DNA from: Candidatus Poribacteria bacterium
Lineage (GTDB): Bacteria > Poribacteria > WGA-4E > WGA-3G
Assembly (NCBI GenBank): GCA_022827225.1
Contig: JAJDTJ010000138.1
Location: 1 to 64,000, forward strand
Reading direction: 5' to 3'
DNA length: 64,000 nucleotides
A model generated the notes under the pieces. The model was given only the letters and a program-made list of their open reading frames with translations, had not been told where the DNA came from and searched no databases. This document shows positions 17,045-62,776 of this stretch, piece after piece. The first letter of the stretch is position 1; each line of letters opens with the position of its first letter. Made by a program: the position numbers and the translations under genes.

Positions 17045-17241
17045 TATGAATACCTCCATATCTATAGTTACTCGATTTGTTCCATTTCGCAAGTACACTG
17101 TAGGGCATCTGTGCCTTTTTGTCAAACAAGTTTTGATTCTTTAATTCTGCTTTTCTTGCTTATGAAATGCATTTGTGCCATAATAGTCGTCAAATACCGA
17201 AAAACGCTTGGATTAACTCCGATGAAGGGGTAACTTTAGAA

Positions 17242-20200
17242 ATGATAAACCGATTAGATGACAACGATCCTCCGATTATGCTTGAAAGTGTAGGATTCAA
17301 GTGCAAACGCTCGTCCATCGTTCTGGTTGTATGTCTTTTATTTTTTTCTCCTCTTTTTGTAATTACGAGTTGTGGTCCACTGGTAACCACCGATCCGCAA
17401 TCTGGCGTTCCGCTTAAGGATTCTGATACAAACTCGCGTCCTAAAAAGATGTGGCCCGTGAAACGGACGCTCGTCAGCAACGAAGTCAACTGTGTTGCAG
17501 CAGATTCGGAGAACGTATGGATTGCAACAGCACACGGGATTTCGCGTTGGGAACGCACCAAAGATAAATGGCTGCACTACACGATGGAAGACGGATTGGC
17601 GAACGATAGGGTGAACGCCGTTGCGATTGATGGGCAGTGGGTCTGGTTCGCTACGGATGAAGGCGTGAGTCGCTACGATATACAAACGGATACCTTTGCG
17701 ACCTTCCGAACTATTGACGGCTTAGCGAGCGACCAGGTCTCCTCTATTGCTATTGATGGAAATTATGTCTGGTTCGGAACGTCTAACGGACTCAACCGCT
17801 ATGACAAAACAATTGACAGTTGGGCGGTACGTACCCGGAAAGACGGGTTGGTCAGCAAAATAATTACAACTATCGCTGTTGAGCCGGAGTACGTCTGGGT
17901 CGGCACCGATAGGGAAATCAACCCCGATCCGCATGGATGGGATCAGGATCCGAGGTTCAGCAAAGGTGGTGTGAGCCGCTACCATCGAGATACGGATTCA
18001 TGGAATAATTATACAAAATCAGATGGTTTGATAGGCAGCGAAATCGCTACGATTGCCGTGGACGATGACAGCGTTTGGTTTGGGACAGAAAAAGAAGGGG
18101 TCAGTCAATACAATCAGGTCGATCAGACCTTCATTAAGACGTATACGAAAACCGACCTGTTGAAAAGCAATATGATGACCTGTATCCGTACAGATGGCTT
18201 CCAAGTCTGGTTCGGGACCGCCAACGCCGGTGTGCACCGATTCATCAAACCCGTCAATACCTGGGTGCATTACACCAAAGCAGACGGACTGTCAAGCAAT
18301 CATGTGAGTTGGATTACCACACACGGTAATGATGTCTGGTTTGCGAGTAAAGAGGATGGGGTGAGCCGCTTCGATAAAGTAACCGGTGAATGGATAATTT
18401 ACAAACAAGCCGATTTTCTTGCAGATAACGATGTCCGAGCGATAACACGTGATACCGATGGGAATCTCTGGGTGGCAACAGTCGGCGGAATCTCGGTTCA
18501 CGCGCCTCAAACGCGGAGTTGGGAAATTATCTCCAAAGAAGATGGACTGCCAACGCCATACATCACGTCAATACTTATTAGTCGTCAGCCATCAGTTATC
18601 AATCGTCAGTTAAGAGATGTTAAATCAGATGCCTCTTTAACTGATAACCGAAAACCGAAAACCGAAAACTATTCTCGCATTTGGATCGGCAGCGATCGAG
18701 GGCTTGGGACAACGACAGATATAAGCACCGAATGGACTTTTCATACGCCGCGAAATAGCAATCGGCAGTCCGCCGACAGCCGACAGCAAGAGGCTGTCGG
18801 AGCATCGAAAACATCTTCGCCGACAGCCATTCACGGTGAAGCGTTTGTGACCGCCCTTGATACCGATGCGGCACGAGCAAACTCTGTTATCTGGCTCGGT
18901 ACCAGTTTAGGACCCGCCATGTATGATCCAACATCTCAAAAATGGACCCAGCTTGACGTGCCGGATGCCCCCAAAAATCCGCTTATATTATCTGTGCTTG
19001 TTCGCGATGGAAGTGTTTGGTTCGGGGGTGCTGAGGGGGTTTGGCGATATTTGATCGCCGATAAGCAGATGCACCCTGCTACCGATGAGCTTCCCGATCC
19101 GTATGTTAATGTCCTCTTCTCCACGGGTGAAAAAGGGAAAGAGGAGACACTTTGGGCAGGAACACGCCGTGGGGTTGCAAGGTATGACATCAACCGCCAG
19201 CGTTGGGTCCCATTGTCCTTTAACGCACAATTACCCTCCCCCAATGTCACTGCGCTCGCTTTTCGAGATGGCACGCTCTGGATTGGCACACCACAGGGAC
19301 TCGGAAGCTACACGATTGCTTCCGATTCTTGGAATCCGCTCTCAAACGTACCGTATAGCATTCGGGACATACTGTGTGCGGAAACTGATAAAATACTTTG
19401 GCTGGCGACGGACATCGGTCTCGTTGAATATCATAGTCGTGAAAAAACCGAAAACGTAGTCCGTAATGTAATGAAGGACGGGTCTACGGAGAAGCATTTG
19501 AAAACACAGGGGAAACACCCAAGCAAAAACACCCGCCTCACCGAACCGCAAGGGAATATAAAAATACATCAATCCCGTCCCGTGCGGGAACCGTTCTTTG
19601 AGACCAGAGTTTCACACATCAAATTTGATGGCGATTACATCTGGTTCAATAACTGGAGAGCTTCGCCGAACGGTAGTATCGTGCGTTTTCATCGCCCAAC
19701 AGCAACGTGGCGACGTTTCACTCGTTTAGATATTTTGCAGTCCACGCAGAAGAGATCCATGACCTTTATCCGTTGGACCTACGTCGATACTGATGCCGTC
19801 TGGTTCACCACGGACTACGGGGTTCTCCGTTATAATAAAACTGCGGATACGTGGCAGCATTTTACGATAGAAGATGGACTCTCTACAGACGATGTGGGTA
19901 AAATTGCTGTCAGTGAGCAGAGCGTCTGGGTTATTCCGATGATAGGTTTGGAATTAAACCGTTATGATAAAGCAACTGGAACGTGGGAAGTGGTTGAAGA
20001 AGAGGGGCACCGTGAGATTGAGAGTATAAAATCACTCGGGGTTGATGGCCCGAACGTCTGGTTCGCGTCTGGGCGCGGACTCACGCGTTACAATGAGGTC
20101 ACCGGTGAATGGAAAAATTTCGGACCCAGGGACGGATTGGCAGGTAGAGGCGCAGAATGGATTACTGTGGATGATGATTTTATTTGGGTTGCGCGTTCGG

Positions 20201-21684
20201 AATGGGACAGAGGCAGCAACCGTCCACTTTCACGATACGATAAGAAAACAAAAAAGTGGACAACTTTCTCAACGAATGACGTACTTGCTGCCAGGACCAT
20301 TAGACGCATTATCGCTACAGAGAACGATGTCTGGATACTCTACAGACCCTGGGATGACGCCGGTGTCACCCGATACGATCGGCGTACAAAAGAGTGGACG
20401 ACAATCCGATCTGGCCGCGGAACGCTCGAACTCGCAGCCGATGACGATTATCTCTGGTTAGCTGCACCCAACGAAGGGCTTCGACGATTTCATTTCGCCT
20501 CCGGCACCTGGACAACGTTCAAAGATATCGAGGGGCTGCTCCATAATCACGTCGGTGAGTACGGGCTTGCAGTCGATCAAGACTATGTATGGGTCGGAAC
20601 CTTACGAGGGCTTTCGCGTTATGACAAGCGGAAGGAATCCTGGACACCTCTGACATCACTGCCAACCCTTTTGGGACGCACCATCCGGACGGTAGATACA
20701 GATGAACGTTTCGTCTGGATCGGTTCCGATAAAGGGATGTCCCGCTACGACAAGGCTTTAGGTACCTGGAAAAATTATCGACAGAAGGGTGGGTCTGAAA
20801 ACATAGAAACCCACGGCGGTCATTGGCACCGACATGGCAGGAAAAAGAGGGACTCCCTCTCCGATAACGTTGTGAGTTCTATCGTCGTTGATGAACAATA
20901 CGTCTGGATCGGGACACGCGATGGCGCGAACCGTTTTGATAAGATAGCATTGCGCTGGGACCAATACAAAACTGAGCATGGGTTGCCTGCGAATAATATA
21001 ACTTCTGTTAGTAGCGATGGCAGTAGCATCTGGGTGGGAACTAATTCCGGGATTGGGAAGTATCCGCGCACAGCGGATGACCTCAACGCATGGATTACTT
21101 ACACATCTGGCACTGAAATCCAACCGTCTGCCGTATCTAAAGAGTTCGCAGAATCATTGGTTACCGATCAAATCTGGTGTATCACGGCGAGTAAGAGACA
21201 CGTCTGGGTCGGCACACGCCGAGGGGTGAGCAAATACGATGTGGGTAAAGACATCTGGAAAACAATCACAGTGGAAGATGGACTCGCAAGCGATGAAGTC
21301 AGTTGTATTGCTATTGATGGCGATCGCGTCTGGTTTGGCAGTGATCGTGGTGTAACGCTCTATAATGAAAAGGCAGATGTTTGGGCTGCCTATACAACAG
21401 AAGATGGACTCGCAAGCAACAAGGTTACTACCATCGGTGTTGATGGCACAGAAGTCTGGATCGGTACTTACAATGCCGGGGTCAGCCGGTTCGATCAGTT
21501 GACGAATACCTGGACAACTTACACACGAGATGATGGTTTGGCACATAATGGTATCCTTTCCATGGCTATTGATAGTAACTATGTCTGGTTCGGCACCTAT
21601 CGCGGGTTGAGCCGCTTTGATAAACGCACAAGCATCTGGACGGTCTTCACAGAGGTCTATGGACCAGAAGACATTTTGAGGTAG
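17242..21684 (+). CDS. Giant Reg_prop beta-propeller lipoprotein
   Basis: About 1480 residues. An N-terminal hydrophobic stretch ends in the lipobox-like VITSCG, so the mature protein is probably a lipoprotein facing the periplasm or surface. The rest is a long run of two-component-regulator-propeller repeats (VWFGT..GVSRYD, DGLAS..V..IA.D), enough for several propellers. Unlike hybrid two-component sensors, no kinase domain is attached. The start at 17242 is preferred over 17167 because GAAGGGG precedes it, although the spacing is long. The repeats are interrupted by low-complexity inserts at about residues 447-477, 505-531 and near 757. At the DNA level these inserts are copies of dispersed palindromic or mobile repeats. 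Possible roles are sensing or a binding scaffold. Confidence 0.75.
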   Translation: MINRLDDNDPPIMLESVGFKCKRSSIVLVVCLLFFSPLFVITSCGPLVTTDPQSGVPLKDSDTNSRPKKMWPVKRTLVSNEVNCVAADSENVWIATAHGISRWERTKDKWLHYTMEDGLANDRVNAVAIDGQWVWFATDEGVSRYDIQTDTFATFRTIDGLASDQVSSIAIDGNYVWFGTSNGLNRYDKTIDSWAVRTRKDGLVSKIITTIAVEPEYVWVGTDREINPDPHGWDQDPRFSKGGVSRYHRDTDSWNNYTKSDGLIGSEIATIAVDDDSVWFGTEKEGVSQYNQVDQTFIKTYTKTDLLKSNMMTCIRTDGFQVWFGTANAGVHRFIKPVNTWVHYTKADGLSSNHVSWITTHGNDVWFASKEDGVSRFDKVTGEWIIYKQADFLADNDVRAITRDTDGNLWVATVGGISVHAPQTRSWEIISKEDGLPTPYITSILISRQPSVINRQLRDVKSDASLTDNRKPKTENYSRIWIGSDRGLGTTTDISTEWTFHTPRNSNRQSADSRQQEAVGASKTSSPTAIHGEAFVTALDTDAARANSVIWLGTSLGPAMYDPTSQKWTQLDVPDAPKNPLILSVLVRDGSVWFGGAEGVWRYLIADKQMHPATDELPDPYVNVLFSTGEKGKEETLWAGTRRGVARYDINRQRWVPLSFNAQLPSPNVTALAFRDGTLWIGTPQGLGSYTIASDSWNPLSNVPYSIRDILCAETDKILWLATDIGLVEYHSREKTENVVRNVMKDGSTEKHLKTQGKHPSKNTRLTEPQGNIKIHQSRPVREPFFETRVSHIKFDGDYIWFNNWRASPNGSIVRFHRPTATWRRFTRLDILQSTQKRSMTFIRWTYVDTDAVWFTTDYGVLRYNKTADTWQHFTIEDGLSTDDVGKIAVSEQSVWVIPMIGLELNRYDKATGTWEVVEEEGHREIESIKSLGVDGPNVWFASGRGLTRYNEVTGEWKNFGPRDGLAGRGAEWITVDDDFIWVARSEWDRGSNRPLSRYDKKTKKWTTFSTNDVLAARTIRRIIATENDVWILYRPWDDAGVTRYDRRTKEWTTIRSGRGTLELAADDDYLWLAAPNEGLRRFHFASGTWTTFKDIEGLLHNHVGEYGLAVDQDYVWVGTLRGLSRYDKRKESWTPLTSLPTLLGRTIRTVDTDERFVWIGSDKGMSRYDKALGTWKNYRQKGGSENIETHGGHWHRHGRKKRDSLSDNVVSSIVVDEQYVWIGTRDGANRFDKIALRWDQYKTEHGLPANNITSVSSDGSSIWVGTNSGIGKYPRTADDLNAWITYTSGTEIQPSAVSKEFAESLVTDQIWCITASKRHVWVGTRRGVSKYDVGKDIWKTITVEDGLASDEVSCIAIDGDRVWFGSDRGVTLYNEKADVWAAYTTEDGLASNKVTTIGVDGTEVWIGTYNAGVSRFDQLTNTWTTYTRDDGLAHNGILSMAIDSNYVWFGTYRGLSRFDKRTSIWTVFTEVYGPEDILR
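18581..18670. repeat. Dispersed palindromic repeat inserted in-frame in the propeller gene
   Basis: ATCAGTTATC ... CAGTTAAGAG and CCTCTTTAACTGATAACCG form inverted arms. The right arm matches the reverse complement of the left arm of the intergenic repeat at 61450-61517. It encodes about 30 residues (RQPSVINRQL... KTENYS) placed between two strands of a propeller repeat that otherwise follows the pattern ITSI ... RIWIGSDRGLG. The reading frame is kept. Confidence 0.6.
18754..18833. repeat. Second palindromic repeat in-frame in the propeller gene
   Basis: CCGACAGC (18780-18787) and GCTGTCGG (18793-18800) form a perfect stem with a five-base loop, flanked by further GACAGC copies. The style matches the GACAGCAGACAGC part of the intergenic repeat between gyrB and gyrA. 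It encodes low-complexity Ser/Gln/Arg-rich sequence between propeller motifs. Confidence 0.5.
19512..19534 (+). repeat. MITE core sequence inside the propeller gene
   Basis: GAAACACCCAAGCAAAAAC matches the MITE core GAAACGCCCAAGCAAAAAC (27049-27067) at all but one position. It encodes GKHPSKN within a low-complexity stretch that interrupts the propeller repeats, so an element of this family appears to have been domesticated in-frame. Confidence 0.5.
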
Positions 21685-34974: not shown

Positions 34975-37900
34975 TTAACGCAATTTCATCATTTTGAGTA
35001 TCTCGGTAATATCTTTTTCACCTTCACGTTTGATTTTGAGTTTAGCGTAGTAAACGCCATTTGCCACCTCAACGCCATCCGTATCCCTACCATCCCACTC
35101 CACCATCAAGAATCCAGGAGTCGCTGGCATAGAGAGTTCCCGAATCATCCGTCCGCTTAACGTATAAATCTTTACCACGAGTGAATCCGCCGGTGCCGTT
35201 AATTCACATGTGAGGGTAGTTTTACGCGAGAACGGATTCGGATAATTCAGAAACGATAGCAGCTGCAAGTTGTCGTGAACCCGGAATGTGATGCGTTTTG
35301 TGTCAGTATTCCCGTGTACATCGCTTGCTGTCAGTCGAAGTTCGTACTCCCGCGGCTCCAGCTCTGGAGACGGATACGTCAAAACGAGTTGATTAGAGCC
35401 GGGTTGGTGTGTCAATTGATACGCCTCTGGCGCGATATGCTCATATTCACCAGATACCCTTCCAAGTTCCAATAACAGGGGTCGGGTGAGATAATTGAGT
35501 CCACTCGGGTCGGTTATTGTTGCACCAATAAGCGGTTCAGGGTCTGTCGCATCTCCTGGAACGAAGTGCTGTTGGTTACCGATAGTGAGTTGAATATCCG
35601 GCGGCACGGTATCGTCGCTGTAAATGAACGTGATTGGCCCGAGTCTATCAGTAGTCGCCCGAATAGTTCCGACAGGTCGGGTTTCAAATCGGAATCTATC
35701 CCCCGGTGTAAACGGATTTTCGCCTTGTGTCAGTTGCAGACGTAAGCCGTAGGGTTCATAGAAGAACGGTTGCCCAACTGTCCCGCGGAGTGGCGTACCA
35801 TTAGTTGCGGACCGCAAGACCCCGGTTCTTTCGCCTTCAATCTGAAATTCGGTATCTGTCAGGAAAAAGACAATCCAATGATCTTCAGGCATATTCGTGT
35901 CCGGTGGTAGTTCAATATAACTGATAGTGCCAGCACCTCGATTGGTATCTCTGAATCCCGCCACGTACCAATGTAATTCTTGCTGCAACGGCTCCTCAAG
36001 GTTCGTCCCGGCTTCCAGTGTTTGGTTGAGCGCGGTTACGTTAAAGGTCCAGACATCGCCGAATACGAATGGATTTTCAAAGCGTTGTTCCATATCAAGG
36101 GCGAATCCGTGCGTCCAGTTCGGATAGTTTATACTGAAACTTGAGAGCTGCTCTGCCAACGAAATCACTTCTAATTCACCAAGATTCTCTCGATCATCTG
36201 CCCCATTCACAAAAGGTGCGTGGAAGACACGGTACGTGCTCGGTCCTGTAAAAAAGAGAACGTATTTGCCGATTCGCGCGCCTTCAGGTTGAATGTGGAC
36301 ATCTCGGAGTTGTCCATCACCGATATTCTCCGCATTTACGTTTGTTATATGTGTACGCCGCCTTAATGTTCCCGAAGCATCGGTCAGGTGTTGAGAAGGG
36401 AGTCGTGTCCAATATCCAAGTGTTGAATTAAACATGTAGACTCCCATTTCACGTGTGCGCGCGACAACTGCTGTATCAAGTGTGCCTGTAACATCTAAGC
36501 CACCGGCCGCCTCCTCCGAACTTCCTAAGACCTCTTCGGCAAGCTGCGTTCTCAGGATTCCATAATCGAAATTCAAATCAATCGCAAGATGGCTATCAGT
36601 AACAAGGGGTTTCTGATTAACAGAAAACCCTCTTTGCTGATTGCTGACTGCCAATTCATATCCGTATACGGAAATGCCGGGCAGCGGTGCACGTTTAGGT
36701 TGTTCGTTTCCGTTAACGCCTGCGATCGTGTTCACAGTAATAGGTTGCGTGGATCCGGCACTTGAAGTTTCCGATCCGATAGCAGCAAATCGCTGGGCAT
36801 CTAAAGAACGTACTGCAAGTACTGTCATATCCTGGAATGCCCCCGGTGGCACCGTAACAACACAATTTCCGTCCACGCTGATAATTTGAGCTGAAGCGGC
36901 AGCATCAACTGTACCCATATCAACAGAAATACGTTGGTAGCCGATATTATCTTCTTCGTCATTTTCAACGACTTCACCAGGACGATCCGCTTCCGTTTCT
37001 GTTGCATCAATATAAACGAAGATGTCGTGTATGCCCGGACGCAACGGATCCGTTAGATTCAAAGTTCCTGTCGCAATCGGTAATGTGTTCAAGGGATCGG
37101 GTTCATAGACCTGTTTCCGATCAGATGCGTCTCCCGAATTCACCAATGGTGTGCGTTGCAGCCAGTCGCTGGGTGGTATCCGCGCGCTACCGAGGAGCTT
37201 GGCATCGCTATCAACAAGCATGTCCTCGTCAACATCTGGATTACCGTAAAAAAAACTGATTTCGACTGGAGTTTCTATATCAGCTCCTTCTACCTGAACA
37301 TCCGCCGCCAAGAACCACCGCTTCCGCTCAAGATTGTAGCCGTAACGAATCATATCAGACCTTCGCACTTGCACAACGGATAGGTTTGGATAGACGTAAG
37401 GATAATATTCCAACCTATTGCTTTTGACGATGTTACGGTCGGAATCCGTGACCTGAATCTCGTATCGGATAGCGGAACCGTCTGTAGGTGCGTCTAACAG
37501 CTCAGGCGTTGTCCACCACCCGTCCTCGCCCTGTTGAATGAGGCGTACAGTTTCCGACTCACGAGTCGCCAAATTCCGCCACTCCAAAACCACCAAGAGC
37601 GACTGATCATTTTCATCTGAAACCTTAACAGAGATACGAAACTTATCATCACCGACCAATTCGGGACGTATATCAAGAATCTTAGGAACGTTGACAGTAA
37701 ATCCATCGCCACCGACAGCGACTGTTGCATCACTTTGTGCGTAATACTCAACATGCGCGTCGCCACTGGCAATATTCTGCGGGACTGTGAAAGTGACAGC
37801 CGGATATGCCCCACGGCTAATAGAAAGCGTCTGCGTCAAGACAACATCGCCTGTATAGTATTCAACTGGCCCGGCGACCCCTTGAGAAACAGCTGTCTTG

Positions 37901-40900
37901 CCGGGAAATACAGCCTTGACAGTGAGCGTTCCATCAAAATCGGTATTTTTAGCAAAGCGTTTCGTTTGACTTGAGGCATCGTAATTGGCATCCAGAATGT
38001 GTCCAGGCGATATTCGGAGGGTATCTCCTGGTGTGACCGTCTTCGTCTCAATAGTAGGCTGAATCTCGCCGTTAGCCATAGCCATCTGTAAAGCTGGATC
38101 CCCAAATAGGGTGTACTCTAACATAACATCAATCTGCCCAGTCCCCTCTGTGATCAAAAGTTCGGTTTTTGAGTCGAAGCTCAAGGGTCCGAGTTGTCGG
38201 ACGTTCCGTTTAAAGAGCATGTCAAAGATAATACGGTTGAGTGCGTCGTTCCCGCTGGCGTAAGTGAGGCGTGTCGCACTCAACATCCCGATGATACCGC
38301 CCCTCTCTTTACGCAACAACTGCTCCGCCATGCTCGGTTGACCTGGTTCGTCAAAATAGCCGTTGTAGCAACTGAGCACCAACATGAAAGGTATCTTATC
38401 CGTCTCTGCGACCTGATCAACAGATAGGTTGTCAAAGATGATTTCATGTGCCCAGACGATTCGCCCGCCGTGTCCGGCGTACTGAGCGAGTACAGCACCC
38501 TCTCCAAGAGCTTCGATTATCATATCTTTCGCGAGGCGTTGTGGGTGGACGCTAAATTCATCAGGTTTCGCCTCGACTTCATCTGTAATATCTTCAAGGA
38601 AAATTTCGACGGTCTCGTATCCCAATCGGGTGTGATCCTTCGCGATCTCGTCGAGGCTCTTCTTAAATATGAAATCCCCGGAATTGCTAACTTCGTCGTC
38701 AGCCACGGAGATGATCCTTCTCCGCCAGTCGCCGTTCGGTGGTGCCTGCTCGTAAGCCAAGATTTTACTGACAACACCCTCAGCTTCACTCACAGTTTCG
38801 ACACTTAGCCTACCGATATAAAAATCTGTGAATTCATCGTGTCCGGAGACGGTCGCATACCAGTGATCTGCGGCTGTGCGTCCAAAGGAATCAGTTCGGA
38901 TGTAGTGCGTCGGGATATAACCGTCAAGTTCAGGCGGTTCAACATGAATTTTCGTATCAACACCCCGAAAATCAAAGGTGCCATCACCTAGGAGGACAAC
39001 ATAACTCAGTGCGGGTGGTGTCCACGATTGATATGCGTGTGTCAGAAAACTTTTGATTGCTTTCGGGCTGACGGCACCATTACCGTAAATGTTATAAATA
39101 TCGTCAGTTGTGACAACCTTTGTTCGGTATCCGCCGCCGCCAGATGTAGCACGCCATGCTGCTAACCGTTCCGCTGCAGATAGGAATTTCGGATGTGTCA
39201 CAACCAAATAATCAACACCGTGCGTTGCAGTTGCTAAATCCGATGGCGCAACAATTTCAACACGCTGCGGTTGTCGAAATGCGGTGGCAGAAACTGCAAC
39301 AAACTGCGCACTTCGGGTATCAAGTGTTTGGAATAGCGCGTTATATAAATCTGGGCGTGCGGGATCCGGTTCTACGGTAACGCCCTGCATCCGAGCCGTC
39401 AGGTATGTCCCATCTGTTTCAAAGATGTGAACGTCTGGATCGCGGAACGCCTCAATTTTGTATTGGAGTTTACGGCCGCCAGCAGACTCCGTGCGTGAAG
39501 CCTTATCTTCGGTAGGTGATCTGAACCACAACTCGTCGGCAACAGCGCGGAAGAGACGAGTATATTCAAGAGAAAAACGATTGAGATAAACATGATATGG
39601 ATACCGCTGGGTGTCCTCATCAACATTATAATCTACGCGGGCAAGAGACAAAACATTCTGTTCACCGTCTTCACTGCTGTTTTTAAACGTATCCCATGTA
39701 CGCAAGGTCTGTTCGATGGTGATTGCCTCTTGTGAGTCCCACTCGGCGACATCAATTCGGACACCGTTGATGGCAACTAAAATTTTGTGCTCCACCGGTG
39801 TTCCACCTTGTAAATCGACAGAAATGTGTGACGGATCAAAACTTTTTGCGACATCATAAAGCGGAAACTCAAGACGCATTTCAGCCCCGTCACCGCCGTT
39901 TTTGATGCCGTCCCAGTACCAAAAGTCGAGCGAAGCAAACCAGTCGTGTTTATCGCCATCAATATAAGCGAATTCGAGGTTATTTGTCAGGTAATCCTCT
40001 TCAAAATGGATTTTAGAGCGGAAAGTCGGAACTTGTGTCGCTGTTGGATCCGTCGGGCTGGCAGTAACCTGCGGCACACGATTTAAGATACGTTGACTGT
40101 TGTCAACTGTGAGCCAATAGATGTTCCAACGGCTATACGGATTTTTCGGTTTATGCCCCAAGAAAAAGATGGCATCCTCCGGGTCAAATCTTTTGTCTGC
40201 TGCACCGCTGACGTAGATCGGTACATCTCTGCCTCCGTGCGTGAGTCGAAGTCTTGCAGGATTACTCCCTGTAAGTTCCACTCCCCAGTCGCGCGTAAGC
40301 GACGCTGCAGTTATAGCATAAATACCTGTATCTTCAACGAACAGTTTGTAGCGCGTGGTATTGCCTACATCGGAAAAGAGCGGTGGTGCTGCAGGCACTA
40401 GAGGGCGGACTGCCCGAAAATGCGCTGCTTGTTCAGCATTGAGGAGTTGGCGCGAGAATGCCCGCTCAAAGACCTCCGGTTCGGAAACTGTAAGTGTTCG
40501 TGGGTTACCTATTACATCACTCCCACTAATGACCGACGACAATTGATGGTTTCCGTTAGAAAAACGGATGTTCACAGTGAAACGTGAATATAAGCGTAAC
40601 TGCCGAGTTTTCGGGAAATACTGCACCGGGTATAGTGCTAAACCGATGACGCGCTGACTCCGAATATAACCTTCCCGGACGACGCGAGCAAGCGGCAGCC
40701 CTGGATACGACGCATCTTCAACGCTTGACTTGTAGGCACTTCCACTCTCTTCCCAACGCTGCGATGCCGCATGTTGTGAGTCGAGTCGATGCACATCGTA
40801 AATCGGGACAGGCACCAAACGTATACCGCTGCGCGTTTCATAAGGCGCGGCTGAAACGTCAACACCTTCAATATTAGCCGTCGCCGGTATACCGAGCAGA

Positions 40901-41160
40901 AAACGTGTAACTGGAACCTTCGGATTGCCAGGTTCACTTGTAAAATGGGAATCGGTATAGTGCACTTCGTTGTAGCGGACGTTGTCGCGGGTAACTTCAG
41001 AAACAGTCAGGTCAGATAAGGTAAACTGAACGGTGATACCGTCGGTTGATGGCACTTGCGTGACGCGCGCAGACACACCAAAAACCGGTAAGAAAAGAAA
41101 GAGTACGGAAATACTTACGCAGAGATTAATCTGCCGTTGCAGCTTTAAAAATAATTGCAT
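34975..41160 (-). CDS. PorU-like gingipain-family (C25) protein
   Basis: 2061 residues. It has a signal peptide (about 1-31) and an N-terminal propeptide-like part (GNPKVPVTRFLLGIP, YPVQYFPKTRQLRLYSRF). A C25 peptidase domain spans about 640-1040 with catalytic His897 (AQYAGHGG) and Cys931 (LSCYNGYF). Several Ig/CARDB-like domains follow, and a FlgD-like C-terminal domain (about 1965-2061, LNYPNPFSRKT ... WDGRDTDG). PorU is the type IX sortase that removes C-terminal signals and attaches cargo to the surface. The length is well above that of Bacteroidetes PorU (about 1150), so a C25 surface protease is an alternative. The adjacent PorV-like gene favours the PorU reading. A palindromic repeat is inserted in-frame at about 36595-36652. 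Confidence 0.75.
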   Translation of the reverse strand: MQLFLKLQRQINLCVSISVLFLFLPVFGVSARVTQVPSTDGITVQFTLSDLTVSEVTRDNVRYNEVHYTDSHFTSEPGNPKVPVTRFLLGIPATANIEGVDVSAAPYETRSGIRLVPVPIYDVHRLDSQHAASQRWEESGSAYKSSVEDASYPGLPLARVVREGYIRSQRVIGLALYPVQYFPKTRQLRLYSRFTVNIRFSNGNHQLSSVISGSDVIGNPRTLTVSEPEVFERAFSRQLLNAEQAAHFRAVRPLVPAAPPLFSDVGNTTRYKLFVEDTGIYAITAASLTRDWGVELTGSNPARLRLTHGGRDVPIYVSGAADKRFDPEDAIFFLGHKPKNPYSRWNIYWLTVDNSQRILNRVPQVTASPTDPTATQVPTFRSKIHFEEDYLTNNLEFAYIDGDKHDWFASLDFWYWDGIKNGGDGAEMRLEFPLYDVAKSFDPSHISVDLQGGTPVEHKILVAINGVRIDVAEWDSQEAITIEQTLRTWDTFKNSSEDGEQNVLSLARVDYNVDEDTQRYPYHVYLNRFSLEYTRLFRAVADELWFRSPTEDKASRTESAGGRKLQYKIEAFRDPDVHIFETDGTYLTARMQGVTVEPDPARPDLYNALFQTLDTRSAQFVAVSATAFRQPQRVEIVAPSDLATATHGVDYLVVTHPKFLSAAERLAAWRATSGGGGYRTKVVTTDDIYNIYGNGAVSPKAIKSFLTHAYQSWTPPALSYVVLLGDGTFDFRGVDTKIHVEPPELDGYIPTHYIRTDSFGRTAADHWYATVSGHDEFTDFYIGRLSVETVSEAEGVVSKILAYEQAPPNGDWRRRIISVADDEVSNSGDFIFKKSLDEIAKDHTRLGYETVEIFLEDITDEVEAKPDEFSVHPQRLAKDMIIEALGEGAVLAQYAGHGGRIVWAHEIIFDNLSVDQVAETDKIPFMLVLSCYNGYFDEPGQPSMAEQLLRKERGGIIGMLSATRLTYASGNDALNRIIFDMLFKRNVRQLGPLSFDSKTELLITEGTGQIDVMLEYTLFGDPALQMAMANGEIQPTIETKTVTPGDTLRISPGHILDANYDASSQTKRFAKNTDFDGTLTVKAVFPGKTAVSQGVAGPVEYYTGDVVLTQTLSISRGAYPAVTFTVPQNIASGDAHVEYYAQSDATVAVGGDGFTVNVPKILDIRPELVGDDKFRISVKVSDENDQSLLVVLEWRNLATRESETVRLIQQGEDGWWTTPELLDAPTDGSAIRYEIQVTDSDRNIVKSNRLEYYPYVYPNLSVVQVRRSDMIRYGYNLERKRWFLAADVQVEGADIETPVEISFFYGNPDVDEDMLVDSDAKLLGSARIPPSDWLQRTPLVNSGDASDRKQVYEPDPLNTLPIATGTLNLTDPLRPGIHDIFVYIDATETEADRPGEVVENDEEDNIGYQRISVDMGTVDAAASAQIISVDGNCVVTVPPGAFQDMTVLAVRSLDAQRFAAIGSETSSAGSTQPITVNTIAGVNGNEQPKRAPLPGISVYGYELAVSNQQRGFSVNQKPLVTDSHLAIDLNFDYGILRTQLAEEVLGSSEEAAGGLDVTGTLDTAVVARTREMGVYMFNSTLGYWTRLPSQHLTDASGTLRRRTHITNVNAENIGDGQLRDVHIQPEGARIGKYVLFFTGPSTYRVFHAPFVNGADDRENLGELEVISLAEQLSSFSINYPNWTHGFALDMEQRFENPFVFGDVWTFNVTALNQTLEAGTNLEEPLQQELHWYVAGFRDTNRGAGTISYIELPPDTNMPEDHWIVFFLTDTEFQIEGERTGVLRSATNGTPLRGTVGQPFFYEPYGLRLQLTQGENPFTPGDRFRFETRPVGTIRATTDRLGPITFIYSDDTVPPDIQLTIGNQQHFVPGDATDPEPLIGATITDPSGLNYLTRPLLLELGRVSGEYEHIAPEAYQLTHQPGSNQLVLTYPSPELEPREYELRLTASDVHGNTDTKRITFRVHDNLQLLSFLNYPNPFSRKTTLTCELTAPADSLVVKIYTLSGRMIRELSMPATPGFLMVEWDGRDTDGVEVANGVYYAKLKIKREGEKDITEILKMMKLR
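36595..36652 (-). repeat. Palindromic repeat inserted in-frame in the PorU-like gene
   Basis: On the coding strand AGCAAAGAGGGTTTTCTG, TTAAT and CAGAAACCCCTT form a hairpin. The segment AGCAAAGA..GT.TTCTGTTAATC.GAAA is shared with the intergenic repeat between gyrB and gyrA (52001-52034). It encodes SNQQRGFSVNQKPLVTDS, a polar stretch in a C-terminal Ig-like region. Confidence 0.65.
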
Positions 41161-49392: not shown

Positions 49393-51939
49393 TTAATCAT
49401 CTTCGACCAAAGAAGACGAAAGTTCAATTTTAGCAGCGTCAACAAGTTTTTCATCGGTTTGGAGTGCCATGATACGTACGCCTTGCGTGTTTCGTCCGAT
49501 ACGTCGAATGTCGCTGACAGCCATTCGGGTAACATAACCGTTTGAACTGATCAGAACGAGTTCATCGGTATCTGCCACACGTTTTGCGGCGACGACGGCT
49601 CCGTTTCGGTCAGATTTACCGATAGCGATAATACCTTTACCGCCGCGTCTCTGTGAACGATACGCAGAGATAGATGTACGTTTACCATACCCATTCTCTG
49701 TGACAATCAGCAGGGTGTCATCCTTTCGACTTACAGAACCTTGTGCTTTTTCTTCCGCATCAGCAGCCTCGCTGTTGACAATAACCATTTGAGCGACGAA
49801 GTCCTCAGCACCGAGTTCTATACCGCGTACACCGCGCGTATTACGTCCAAGGGGTCTGACATTTTCCTCGCTGAACCGAATAGCAGTTCCGTTGTGTGTA
49901 ACAAGGACGACATCTGATGTGCCTGTTGTTACTTGCGCGCCAATCAGTTTATCGCCATCGTCAAGATTCACTGCGATGATACCGCTTGATAACGTATTTT
50001 CAAAGCTGGAGAGCTCTGTCTTTTTAACGATCCCGTTTTGTGTCGCCATGAAAACAAATTCGTCCGCGACGGATTCGCCAGCATCAGCTTCCGCCTCAGT
50101 TTCCGGCTTTGGGCTGCCAGTTTTAGGACGGACTGGAACATAAGCGGTGATGTTCTCCTCTGCTGCTAACTTAAGCAAATTAACAACGGCTCGTCCAGCG
50201 GATTGGCGACTCGCTTCAGGGATCTGGTGGACTTTCAAGGTATAACATTTGCCCATATCTGTGAAAAATAAAATGTTCTGATGGGCAGTTGCGACGAAAA
50301 TATGCTCCAAAAAATCACCATCTTTCGGGGGGGCTCCCTTAATACCGACACCGCCGCGGTGCTGCTTCCGATAGGTATCCATAGGCAACCGTTTGATATA
50401 ACCGCTGTGCGAAAGCGTGACGACCATATCTTCGTCGGCAATGAGATCCTCTACTTTGAATTCTTTAACTTCATCGGTAATTTCCGTTCGACGTTCATCA
50501 CCATACTTTTCTTTCAGGGTTTCGAGTTCTGTGTGGATAATATCTGTTACCAATGCTTCATTGGCAAGGATTGCACGGAGTTCGGCGATACGATCTAAAA
50601 TGTCGGTATATTCATCGTGGATACGCTGGCGTTCAAGTCCAGTTAGTTGACGAAGTGTCATCGTGAGGATTTCCCTCGCCTGCACCTCGCTGAGTTGATA
50701 TGTCTCCCGAAGTTCTTGTTCTGCTGCTTGCGGGGATTCAGCAGTTTGAACAAGTTCTATAATCGCCTCAAGGTTTTGAAGTGCTAAAAGGTACCCCTCA
50801 AGAATATGATTTCTGCGTTCAGCACGAGCAAGTTCAAATTGAGTGCGCCGGCGAATCACATCGCGGCGATGCTCAAGGTAGTAGGACAGAATTTCCGAAA
50901 GCGTTAGCACTTTCGGGAGACCCTCTACAAGGCAGAGAAGGTTCGCACTAAAAGTTGTCTGCATCTGTGTATGCTTGTACAACTGGTTCAAAATAACTTG
51001 AGCGATCTCGCCACGTTTGAGAATTATGACGATGCGGATCTCTTTGTCCGACTCATCCCGGATATCCCGAATACCAGTGATAGTTTTGTCAACAACTAAC
51101 TGATGCATCCGCTCTAATAATTGGTTTTTCTTTACCTGATACGGAATCTCAGTTATGATGATCTGTTCCTGTTCAGCTCCGCCTCTACTCCGTTCAGGGG
51201 CTCTCTCTATGATCGCTTTCGCACGGACAGTGGCACTCCCTCTGCCTGTGGTGTACATATCCTTAATTCCGTTAGTGCCAACGATAATTCCGGCTGTCGG
51301 GAAATCGGGACCGATGATGTGTTCCATCAAGGTTTCTGAATCAGCAGCTGGATTTGAGAGTTTGTAAAGCAGCGCGTCAACAACTTCATTCAGATTGTGA
51401 GGCGGTATGCGCGTGAGGTAACCGACACCGATCCCTGTCGTCCCGTTTACAAGCAAGTTCGGAAGGAGCCCCGGAAGAACCGTCGGTTCTTCAAGCGATT
51501 CCTTATAGTTAGGTTGAAAGTCAACTACTTGCTTGTCAATGTCGGTAAGCATCTCCTCCGCGATCAGGGTCAAACGACATTCTGTGTAGCGCATCGCCCC
51601 CGGCGGATCGTCGTCAATGCTGCCGAAGTTCCCTTGACCGTCTATAAGTGGGTAGCGTATGCTAAACGGTTGCGCTAAGCCGACAAGCGTACCATAAATC
51701 GGACCATCACCGTGTGGATGGAAGTTTTTCATCACTTCACCGACAACCGCTGCGCATTTATCATATGGGCGGCTTGCAGTGAGATTTATCTCTCCCATCG
51801 CATAGATAATCCGACGGGTACCGGGTTTGAGACCATCTCGGACATCCGGGATCGCGCGATTGGTGTTGACGCTCATCGCGTAGGCGAGATAGGACGTTTT
51901 CAGTTCATTTTCTATGTTGGTTTCTAAAATATTTTCCAT
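49393..51939 (-). CDS. gyrA: DNA gyrase subunit A
   Basis: 848 residues, full length. The catalytic tyrosine is Tyr118 (AMRYTECRL). The six-bladed C-terminal wrapping domain is recognisable, with a GyrA-box-like QRRGGKG near residue 760. GyrA cuts and rejoins the gate DNA segment while GyrB supplies ATP. The helix-4 segment that reads HPHGDSAVYD in E. coli is HPHGDGPIYG here, so both positions that anchor quinolones (Ser83 and Asp87) are Gly. The gene follows gyrB after 118 bases that hold a palindromic repeat. Confidence 0.95.
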   Translation of the reverse strand: MENILETNIENELKTSYLAYAMSVNTNRAIPDVRDGLKPGTRRIIYAMGEINLTASRPYDKCAAVVGEVMKNFHPHGDGPIYGTLVGLAQPFSIRYPLIDGQGNFGSIDDDPPGAMRYTECRLTLIAEEMLTDIDKQVVDFQPNYKESLEEPTVLPGLLPNLLVNGTTGIGVGYLTRIPPHNLNEVVDALLYKLSNPAADSETLMEHIIGPDFPTAGIIVGTNGIKDMYTTGRGSATVRAKAIIERAPERSRGGAEQEQIIITEIPYQVKKNQLLERMHQLVVDKTITGIRDIRDESDKEIRIVIILKRGEIAQVILNQLYKHTQMQTTFSANLLCLVEGLPKVLTLSEILSYYLEHRRDVIRRRTQFELARAERRNHILEGYLLALQNLEAIIELVQTAESPQAAEQELRETYQLSEVQAREILTMTLRQLTGLERQRIHDEYTDILDRIAELRAILANEALVTDIIHTELETLKEKYGDERRTEITDEVKEFKVEDLIADEDMVVTLSHSGYIKRLPMDTYRKQHRGGVGIKGAPPKDGDFLEHIFVATAHQNILFFTDMGKCYTLKVHQIPEASRQSAGRAVVNLLKLAAEENITAYVPVRPKTGSPKPETEAEADAGESVADEFVFMATQNGIVKKTELSSFENTLSSGIIAVNLDDGDKLIGAQVTTGTSDVVLVTHNGTAIRFSEENVRPLGRNTRGVRGIELGAEDFVAQMVIVNSEAADAEEKAQGSVSRKDDTLLIVTENGYGKRTSISAYRSQRRGGKGIIAIGKSDRNGAVVAAKRVADTDELVLISSNGYVTRMAVSDIRRIGRNTQGVRIMALQTDEKLVDAAKIELSSSLVEDD

Positions 51940-51950
51940 ATTCGATTGTC

Positions 51951-52057
51951 AGTTATCAGTTGTCGGAGGAATAGTCATCAGCAGACAGCAGACAGCTGTC
52001 AGCAAAGAAAGTATTCTGTTAATCGGAAATCTTTTGTGGCTGATAGCCGATAGCCAT
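51951..52057. repeat. Dispersed palindromic repeat between gyrB and gyrA
   Basis: TTGTCAGTTATCAG near 51953, GACAGCAGACAGCTGTC, and AGCAAAGAAAGTATTCTG followed by TTAATC and GGAAATCTTTTGTGGCTGATAGCC. Its right half is closely related to the repeat inside the PorU-like gene. It lies in the gyrB-gyrA spacer, where it may affect relative expression. Confidence 0.65.
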
Positions 52058-54697
<2,640 letters not shown>

Positions 54698-61449: not shown

Positions 61450-61517
61450 GTGTCAGTTATCGGTTATCAGTCATCAGAGAGGTCGCGCAGCAACCGTACT
61501 GATGACTGACAACTGTT
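61450..61517. repeat. Dispersed palindromic repeat (intergenic copy)
   Basis: TGTCAGTTATCGGTTATCAG, TCATCAGAGAGG and the family arm ACCGTACTGATGACTGACAACTG. It fills the gap between hisC and the hydroxyacid dehydrogenase gene. The left arm is the reverse complement of the right arm of the copy inside the propeller gene. Confidence 0.65.
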
Positions 61518-61522
61518 CATTA

Positions 61523-62602
61523 TTAAAGACTCGGGTTTGGTGAGGTTCGTACCTCGACTGCTTTCGGTGTCAATGCGCCGATAGGGGCTTCACCTTTCAG
61601 GACCCGTTCAAAATCGTCTATTGTCATATCTGCCACGCGTAGGTTGGCGTCTTTCGTTCTACCGGCGATATGCGGTGTGTGGACGACGTTATCCCGATTC
61701 CGCAATTCGTCATCAACGTGTACAGGTTCAATATCGTAAACATCGAATGCACCTGCGAGTTCATCGTTCACGATCCGTTCTCTTAACGCTTCCATATCAA
61801 CAGCGTGGGCGCGCGTGATGATGACAACTAAACTTCCTTTCCGCAGATGATAAATCCGTTCTCGATTCAACAGATGCCGCGCCGAGGGTGTTGGCGGAAC
61901 CGCCACAAACACAATATCGGAGCTATCAGCAAGCCTATCCATATCAACGCGCTGCACATCCCATTCCTGAAGCAGCGCATCCGGAACAAACGGATCATAA
62001 CCTGTCACCGTTGCGCCGAAAACTCGGCACCACTTTGCGATTTTCCCGCCAATCTGACCGAGACCGATGACGCCTATCCGTTTAGTACCGAGGTCGCCGT
62101 TCACGAAGTCGGGATCGTCACAGAATTGATGGGCAACCGGAAGTTTACTGCTGCCCCATATTGGATTCTCCCAATCCCATAACGTTTCACCGTTTGCCAT
62201 CTTCAAGTGCCATTGTGCTGTCCGGCGTAGCGAAGACAACGCCAGACCGAAGGCACACTCCGCCACAGATTGGGACCATGCACGCGTTGACTCAATAACG
62301 GGAATATTTCGTTCTTGAAGTGCCTGGTAGGGGATACCGTGTCCAGAATTATCGGTCATCGCCCCAAACACTTTCAGTTTTGGGGCTGCTGCGATACACG
62401 CTTCGGTTAGGTTGCCGCCGAAATGCGATATGCCGACAGTTTCGCTGAGATCAACTTGTTCGTGAATCGGGTCTCGGCTTCGGGTGTTGAGAACAAGCGT
62501 TATACCGAGTTCTTCCAATCGATGCACCATTTGTTCGTGCACGAAGGGCCAAGAAACTTCTAAGTTCGGATGACGTGTGAATACAAATTCGGGGCTTGCC
62601 AT
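61523..62602 (-). CDS. D-isomer-specific 2-hydroxyacid dehydrogenase
   Basis: 359 residues. NAD-binding GLGQIG (180-185). The catalytic triad of the family is visible: Arg264 (TRAHAVD), Glu292 (DIEPV) and His311 (HTPHIAG). It would reduce a 2-keto acid or oxidise a D-2-hydroxyacid with NAD(P). It is closest in layout to phosphoglycerate-dehydrogenase-like enzymes, but no ACT domain follows, so the substrate is open. It stands upstream of hisC on the same strand. Confidence 0.85.
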   Translation of the reverse strand: MASPEFVFTRHPNLEVSWPFVHEQMVHRLEELGITLVLNTRSRDPIHEQVDLSETVGISHFGGNLTEACIAAAPKLKVFGAMTDNSGHGIPYQALQERNIPVIESTRAWSQSVAECAFGLALSSLRRTAQWHLKMANGETLWDWENPIWGSSKLPVAHQFCDDPDFVNGDLGTKRIGVIGLGQIGGKIAKWCRVFGATVTGYDPFVPDALLQEWDVQRVDMDRLADSSDIVFVAVPPTPSARHLLNRERIYHLRKGSLVVIITRAHAVDMEALRERIVNDELAGAFDVYDIEPVHVDDELRNRDNVVHTPHIAGRTKDANLRVADMTIDDFERVLKGEAPIGALTPKAVEVRTSPNPSL

Positions 62603-62776
62603 TTTTTTGATTTTCCTTGCGGTTCGGTTAGGTGCGCTGAGACCTTCAAATATCTTTGGCGTTAACCGCTAGGGACGTTGTCTCTGGCTACGCGCACTGA
62701 ACTGAATTTTTTACAAGATGGAAGGAACGAGGTGTCCTACCTCAATTTTGCCTAAACCTTGTAAATTTCACAACCA

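Follow-up and report, generated by a model that had tools for sequence, protein, structure and literature searches.

Rickettsia and Wolbachia supply the best-known examples of short palindromic repeats that lie in frame within genes; both are intracellular and have reduced genomes, so that weak selection offers a ready explanation. The palindromic elements of these genera (RPE in Rickettsia; Ogata et al. 2000; PMC2229807) are dispersed, occur in intergenic DNA as well as in frame within conserved protein genes, keep a stop-free frame and have a mobiliser that is still unidentified. RPE proper measure 105-146 bp and end in inverted repeats of ~12 bp (PMC2229807), and RPE-4 and RPE-6 carry a CGTC tag at one end (PMC3733652). 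Other repeats behave in related ways. The GTAG and CGTC families of REPs are short, mostly intergenic palindromes, some of which encode 20-30 amino acids within known genes (PMC3733652); the enterobacterial RU and Neisseria Correia elements are MITE-like repeats that can be fused in frame to ORFs (PMC2229807); and the TAACTGA repeats of Beggiatoaceae, Cyanobacteria and Bacteroidetes are tandem heptamers often placed just upstream of start codons (PMC4679880).

Poribacteria are a phylum known from marine sponges. Here we describe a comparable phenomenon in this uncultured phylum, whose genomes measure 5-6 Mb. No such system has been described for the lineage in the open-access literature that we searched, although subscription journals were largely not covered.

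Results

An in-frame element in a C25 peptidase gene

We analysed a stretch of 64,000 nucleotides (the window) from a 5.62-Mb draft genome. A minus-strand open frame at 34975..41160 encodes a PorU-like C25 peptidase of 2061 amino acids (PF01364, E 3.8e-84; PF08126; PF13860), which Pfam finds to contain Propeptide_C25 and FlgD_ig domains and whose orthologues are known across the genus and order. Within this gene, at 36583..36653 on the same strand, lies a palindromic element with heptamer arms (coding strand TGGCAGTCAGCAATCAGCAAAGAGGGTTTTCTGTTAATCAGAAACCCCTTGTTACTGATAGCCATCTTGCG) that encodes AVSNQQRGFSVNQKPLVTDSH.

An earlier note, made from sequence alone, had proposed that the PorU-like gene and the gyrB-gyrA spacer have a sequence in common, and that the gene reads it in frame as a polar stretch without stops. 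Both claims held, with the correction that the span given there, 36595-36652, was slightly short. The host frame is uninterrupted throughout and the element's frame is stop-free (SNQQRGFSVNQKPLVTDSH). A repeat search of the window paired 36591-36651 with 51988-52048 (61 nt, 80%), and a covariance model of the family, built from 19 copies, matched the peptidase gene at 36583-36653 (E 1.5e-13). When the gene copy was compared with its own genome, BLAST returned 50 matches, the best being 90-91% identical over 55-60 bp with E-values down to 9e-16, and the core is therefore abundant elsewhere. Since the 19 copies from which the model was built include those of the peptidase gene and the gyr spacer, it is BLAST that provides independent evidence for them. 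The spacer copy occupies 51986..52055 (+; model E 8e-17), with gyrA downstream (49393..51939, -; N-terminus 89-98% identical in congeners) and gyrB upstream (52058..54658, -), the C-terminus of which, NFDMYGA*, adjoins the spacer.

Anatomy and fold

Aligned copies consist of a ~45-bp hairpin core (CAGCAAAGAGG...TTAATCA.AAACCTCTT..TTGCTGA) between arms of degenerate tandem heptamers, variable in number, with AGCCGTC, AGCAATC and AGCAGTC on one side and TAGCCGA, AAGCCGA and TGGCTGA on the other; copies within genes are ~60-100 bp long. In a 1.18-Mb sample of the genome, exact tandem duplications of 7-mers numbered 192, against 38 for 8-mers, and many of the top 7-mer units are of the element's type. 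As single-stranded DNA the peptidase copy folds better than its shuffles (z -3.4; 0/200 as good), as do the gyr-spacer copy (z -3.8) and a copy in a propeller gene, site B (z -4.0). Folding was not significantly better than in shuffled sequence for propeller site A (z -0.3), a BatA gene copy (-0.4) and a CtaA gene copy (-1.1); by these scores, some copies within genes have lost hairpin strength. One copy of the window's genome (L016/L088, C136:18372-18483) contains a nested ~40-bp hairpin (GTGTTTTTGCTTAGAAGAAACACCCAAGCAAAAACG) in its loop, and a similar motif, GGAAACACCCAAGCAAAAACAC, was seen in the propeller gene of a congener (L188).

A family nearly confined to one genus

All genomes surveyed are metagenome assemblies, and the covariance-model E-values are rough. 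Within the window's own genome we read 1.18 Mb (21%), on contigs picked because they were known to carry matches, so densities are not genome averages. With both strands counted, the model gave 115 matches at E<=0.1. The heptamer-arm pattern formed 45 clusters in the 1.18 Mb and none in a 200-kb Markov-shuffled control, and is therefore far beyond chance. The family was present in 38/38 genomes of the genus, with 19 to at least 73 matches each (73 being the ceiling of the count); three other genera of the family gave 0, 0 and 9 matches, and there were almost none further out. Among the relatives searched, the element is thus nearly confined to one genus of sponge-associated Poribacteria. Neither Rfam (in the window) nor phage and plasmid collections (at the DNA level) gave any match to it.

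Copies lie mostly between genes. Long open frames (>=200 codons) hold only 5/45 clusters though they cover 84% of bases (P~1e-26), and a ribosome-binding site opening an ORF was found within 30 bp of 12/44 copies, compared with 6% of random intergenic positions. Two copies that overlap ORFs (L076 and L095) were discounted, being at the extreme ends of open frames and probably outside the gene. A weak relative with GTTATCAG-type arms was also seen in the window at 61455-61515 (model E 2e-4), outside long open frames.

Copies within genes and their reading frame

Four copies in the sample of the window's genome lie inside three conserved genes: the C25 peptidase, a propeller gene (two copies) and a BatA/VWA protein. 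In congeners, 5/40 sampled strong matches were genic. With Pfam, their host genes were assigned to NuoL, CtaA, a GHMP kinase (with the match at its C-terminus) and an orthologue of the propeller gene, and the fifth is unnamed. Counting one representative per site, 7/8 copies within genes are read in one orientation and in one frame with respect to the core (CAG CAA AGA or variants), CtaA being the one that differs, and this frame encodes a polar peptide (S-N-Q-Q...T-D-S). The bias exceeds what open-frame availability would give (P 0.001 against open-frame weights). Stop avoidance by itself was considered as an explanation and is insufficient: intergenic copies are open 20 times in the used frame and 48 times in the other five. 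Other frames are thus open in many intergenic copies, so it is likely that the content of the polar peptide also contributes to the choice of frame.

Replacement in the peptidase linker

The earlier note had suggested comparing orthologues, which would lack the segment if it had been inserted. The segment is not simply missing from them; other sequences stand at its position, and the same residues are not carried. In the orthologue alignment, the linker measures 42-48 amino acids in outgroup families. Two congeners have 45, the window's peptidase has 51 and other members of the genus have up to 67; several congeners hold a different version of the element there, likewise in frame. Our copy codes for nearly the whole linker, and native residues must therefore have been replaced. 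We infer from this alignment that the element has largely replaced a hypervariable linker, with a net gain of ~6 amino acids, rather than simply adding to it, which is a caveat to simple insertion. AlphaFold gave a poor model of a 301-amino-acid region (mean pLDDT 47.7), in which the element's residues (~124-145) fall between two predicted strands in a segment without secondary structure; this is only suggestive.

The closest relatives of the peptidase copy are at other loci. It shares 58/61 positions (95%) with a copy that G005, another species, carries in a different gene, and 54/59 with an intergenic copy of its own genome; the orthologous peptidase linkers of sister species give only short matches. 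We consider it likely that the peptidase copy is translated and tolerated, an inference from intact frames and conserved flanks made without expression or protein data.

Empty and filled sites

The cleanest comparison of an empty with a filled site comes from CtaA. The aligned stretch is 35-39 amino acids long in outgroups and nearly all congeners; one congener has 46, and three with the element have 66, 78 and 65. The flanks of these three are up to ~96% identical to those of their closest empty relatives. The pair is near-clean at +31 amino acids, with a few native residues beside the insert also changed, and tblastn with the filled CtaA matched even intergenic copies of the window's genome. 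In one of these CtaA genes (G009, L347), a further short in-frame insertion beside the element (AGCAAGTTTTGGCTTGCAAGCTGCGCC) looks like another type of repeat.

The gyr spacer, filled in the window, is empty in a close relative (G002; GyrA 98%), where ~30 bp remain with an AGGAGG ribosome-binding site; in G025 and G019 it is occupied by other elements. No clear target duplication could be discerned in either the gyr-spacer or the CtaA pairs.

The propeller gene (17137..21681, +) is an open frame of 1515 codons (Reg_prop PF07494, E 4e-33; PorZ N-terminal propeller PF21544, E 4e-10) and holds two copies, both supported by orthologue alignment. Site A, at 18580..18675 (+; model match 18593-18656, E 1e-7), has GTTATCAG-type arms. 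Site B, at 18757..18831 (+; model match 18777-18828, E 0.001), is also marked by a heptamer cluster; many congeners and outgroups have PQAETQ or similar there, and the window's genome has ~28 residues encoded by the element. In this gene too, the alignment shows native linker residues lost and replaced rather than only added to.

Some further features of these genes were observed. The two genes of the window that hold elements are similar to parts of type IX secretion, namely a PorZ-type propeller (PF21544) and a C25 PorU-like peptidase. A second type of dispersed repeat, CCTCACCGAACCGCAAGGGAATATAAAAATACATCAATCCC with an inverted relative (76%), occurs at 19536-19576 and 62592-62632, and it too lies in frame in the propeller gene (LTEPQGNIKIHQSR).

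Discussion

Dispersal of the element, its location in frame within genes, the existence of empty and filled sites and the similarity of copies across loci are all shown directly by these data. The best explanation, and a likely one, is that it is a non-autonomous mobile palindrome specific to the genus, whose copies within genes are read as flexible linker peptides; translation, tolerance, the flexibility of the linkers and transposition by an enzyme are inferred. The palindrome would multiply chiefly in intergenic DNA, frequently a short way ahead of a ribosome-binding site. Occasionally it would land in a gene and survive in a flexible linker, nearly always oriented and framed so that the encoded peptide is polar and free of stops. 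By this route it would have come to form nearly all of a hypervariable linker in the C25 peptidase. In the peptidase and propeller genes, insertion would have been accompanied or followed by deletion, because native linker residues have been lost from both. Copying between sites has occurred, and the data are compatible with transposition as well as with gene conversion. Several points count against the explanation: no mobilising transposase was identified among the Y1 genes considered below (the flanks of Y1 genes in congeners were outside the scope of this work), no clear target duplication was seen, native linker residues were lost, and some copies within genes have weakened hairpins.

The strongest alternative is spread without a transposase, in which heptamer arrays drive gene conversion, template switching or slippage, and linkers are continually overwritten by other copies. 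Several observations favour it. The two propeller sites are alike within a genome (96% identical in G013, 98% in G010 and 89% in G025) and mostly unlike between species (generally 48-79%, with one pair at 86%). The propeller gene of G009 (L197) repeats a 36-bp, 12-amino-acid unit (DSNQPSAVSRQQ) made of element heptamers about five times, in frame and almost unchanged, which reads as a recent in-frame tandem expansion. Moreover, sister species have different versions of the element in the same linkers, native residues were replaced and not only added to, and element numbers do not correlate with those of a transposase. However, the element has arrived in CtaA and the gyr spacer at sites that lack its sequence in close relatives, which conversion between existing copies fails to explain, and on balance we lean slightly against this account. 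A bolder form of it remains conceivable, in which copying independent of a transposase (heptamer-guided gene conversion or template switching) is still active and rewrites linkers of secreted and membrane proteins throughout the genus; if so, species would differ in the length and sequence of their linkers by exchanging mobile palindromes.

A less likely possibility is that the elements have a regulatory function as RNA or DNA sites, acting in translation control, mRNA stability or protein binding, with the copies within genes as by-products. Their excess within 30 bp of ribosome-binding sites (12/44, with 6% expected) and the similar placement of TAACTGA heptamers in Beggiatoaceae (PMC4679880) speak for this possibility. 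Against it, both the content and the presence of the gyr-spacer element vary between close relatives, Rfam gave no match, and the bias in placement may only mirror where insertion does least harm.

We regard it as very unlikely that these are REP-type elements whose mobility depends on a RAYT (REP-associated tyrosine transposase). The size of the hairpin and its intergenic placement are REP-like, and Y1 transposases are found in 37/38 genomes of the genus. Yet no fixed GTAG end is seen in aligned copies, the only Y1 gene of the window's genome is IS200-like and has no elements in its flanks, and across the genus the number of Y1 genes is unrelated to that of elements (rho 0.02, with element counts limited by the ceiling of 73), one genome (89% complete) having 61 element matches and no Y1 match. 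For the window's genome, RAYT mobilisation is rejected on the grounds of that single element-free Y1 gene and the lack of correlation.

Finally, convergence of a hypervariable, low-complexity polar linker on the intergenic repeats, which would suit the wide variation in linker length and sequence among congeners and the unrelated residues of outgroups, is all but excluded by the 95% identity over 61 bp with a copy in another gene, the ~90% identity with intergenic copies of the same genome and the DNA-level palindromicity that the peptidase copy retains.

In the 38 congeneric genomes one and the same site can be seen filled, empty or rewritten, and therefore the choice of frame, the preference for linkers, the rate of turnover and the cost to the protein can all be tested by comparison. 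The findings also carry a warning that the hypervariable linkers of these proteins are partly mobile DNA.

How, then, does the element compare with the systems already described? Most RU and Correia elements have well-defined inverted repeats at their termini and target duplications; neither feature was clearly seen in the Poribacteria element, though it resembles them as a MITE-like repeat in frame with ORFs. With the GTAG and CGTC REPs it has in common short, mostly intergenic palindromes that sometimes encode protein, but it differs in lacking a fixed terminal tag, in having no element-flanked RAYT that we could find and in its long heptamer arms. The TAACTGA repeats have tandem heptamers of a related type, GTTATCAG-type arms occurring in the Poribacteria element too, and both often lie shortly upstream of start codons or ribosome-binding sites; they are, however, direct repeats of one exact unit that lack a palindromic core and within ORFs occur chiefly at the ends of proteins, whereas the Poribacteria element has degenerate units and a conserved palindromic core and is protein-internal. 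The earlier note had likened the element to those of Rickettsia, and this is supported in behaviour, since several conserved genes carry it in frame and some of them have orthologues whose site is empty, but not in lineage or anatomy. Two general marks of a protein-coding palindrome are seen, one family lying both between genes and in frame, and CtaA and propeller site B having orthologues with an empty site; translation into a working host protein is inferred. The marks of RPE proper are lacking, as a core of ~45 bp with variable heptamer arms fits neither their size nor their terminal repeats, and CGTC is confined to the interior of some heptamers of the arms and is absent from the peptidase copy. 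We therefore call the element RPE-like in behaviour without claiming membership in RPE proper, any sequence homology to RPE families being outside our evidence. Compared with RPE, it belongs to a different phylum, has arms of tandem degenerate heptamers in place of short terminal inverted repeats, is enriched beside ribosome-binding sites and sits in linkers that have been rewritten repeatedly among congeners.
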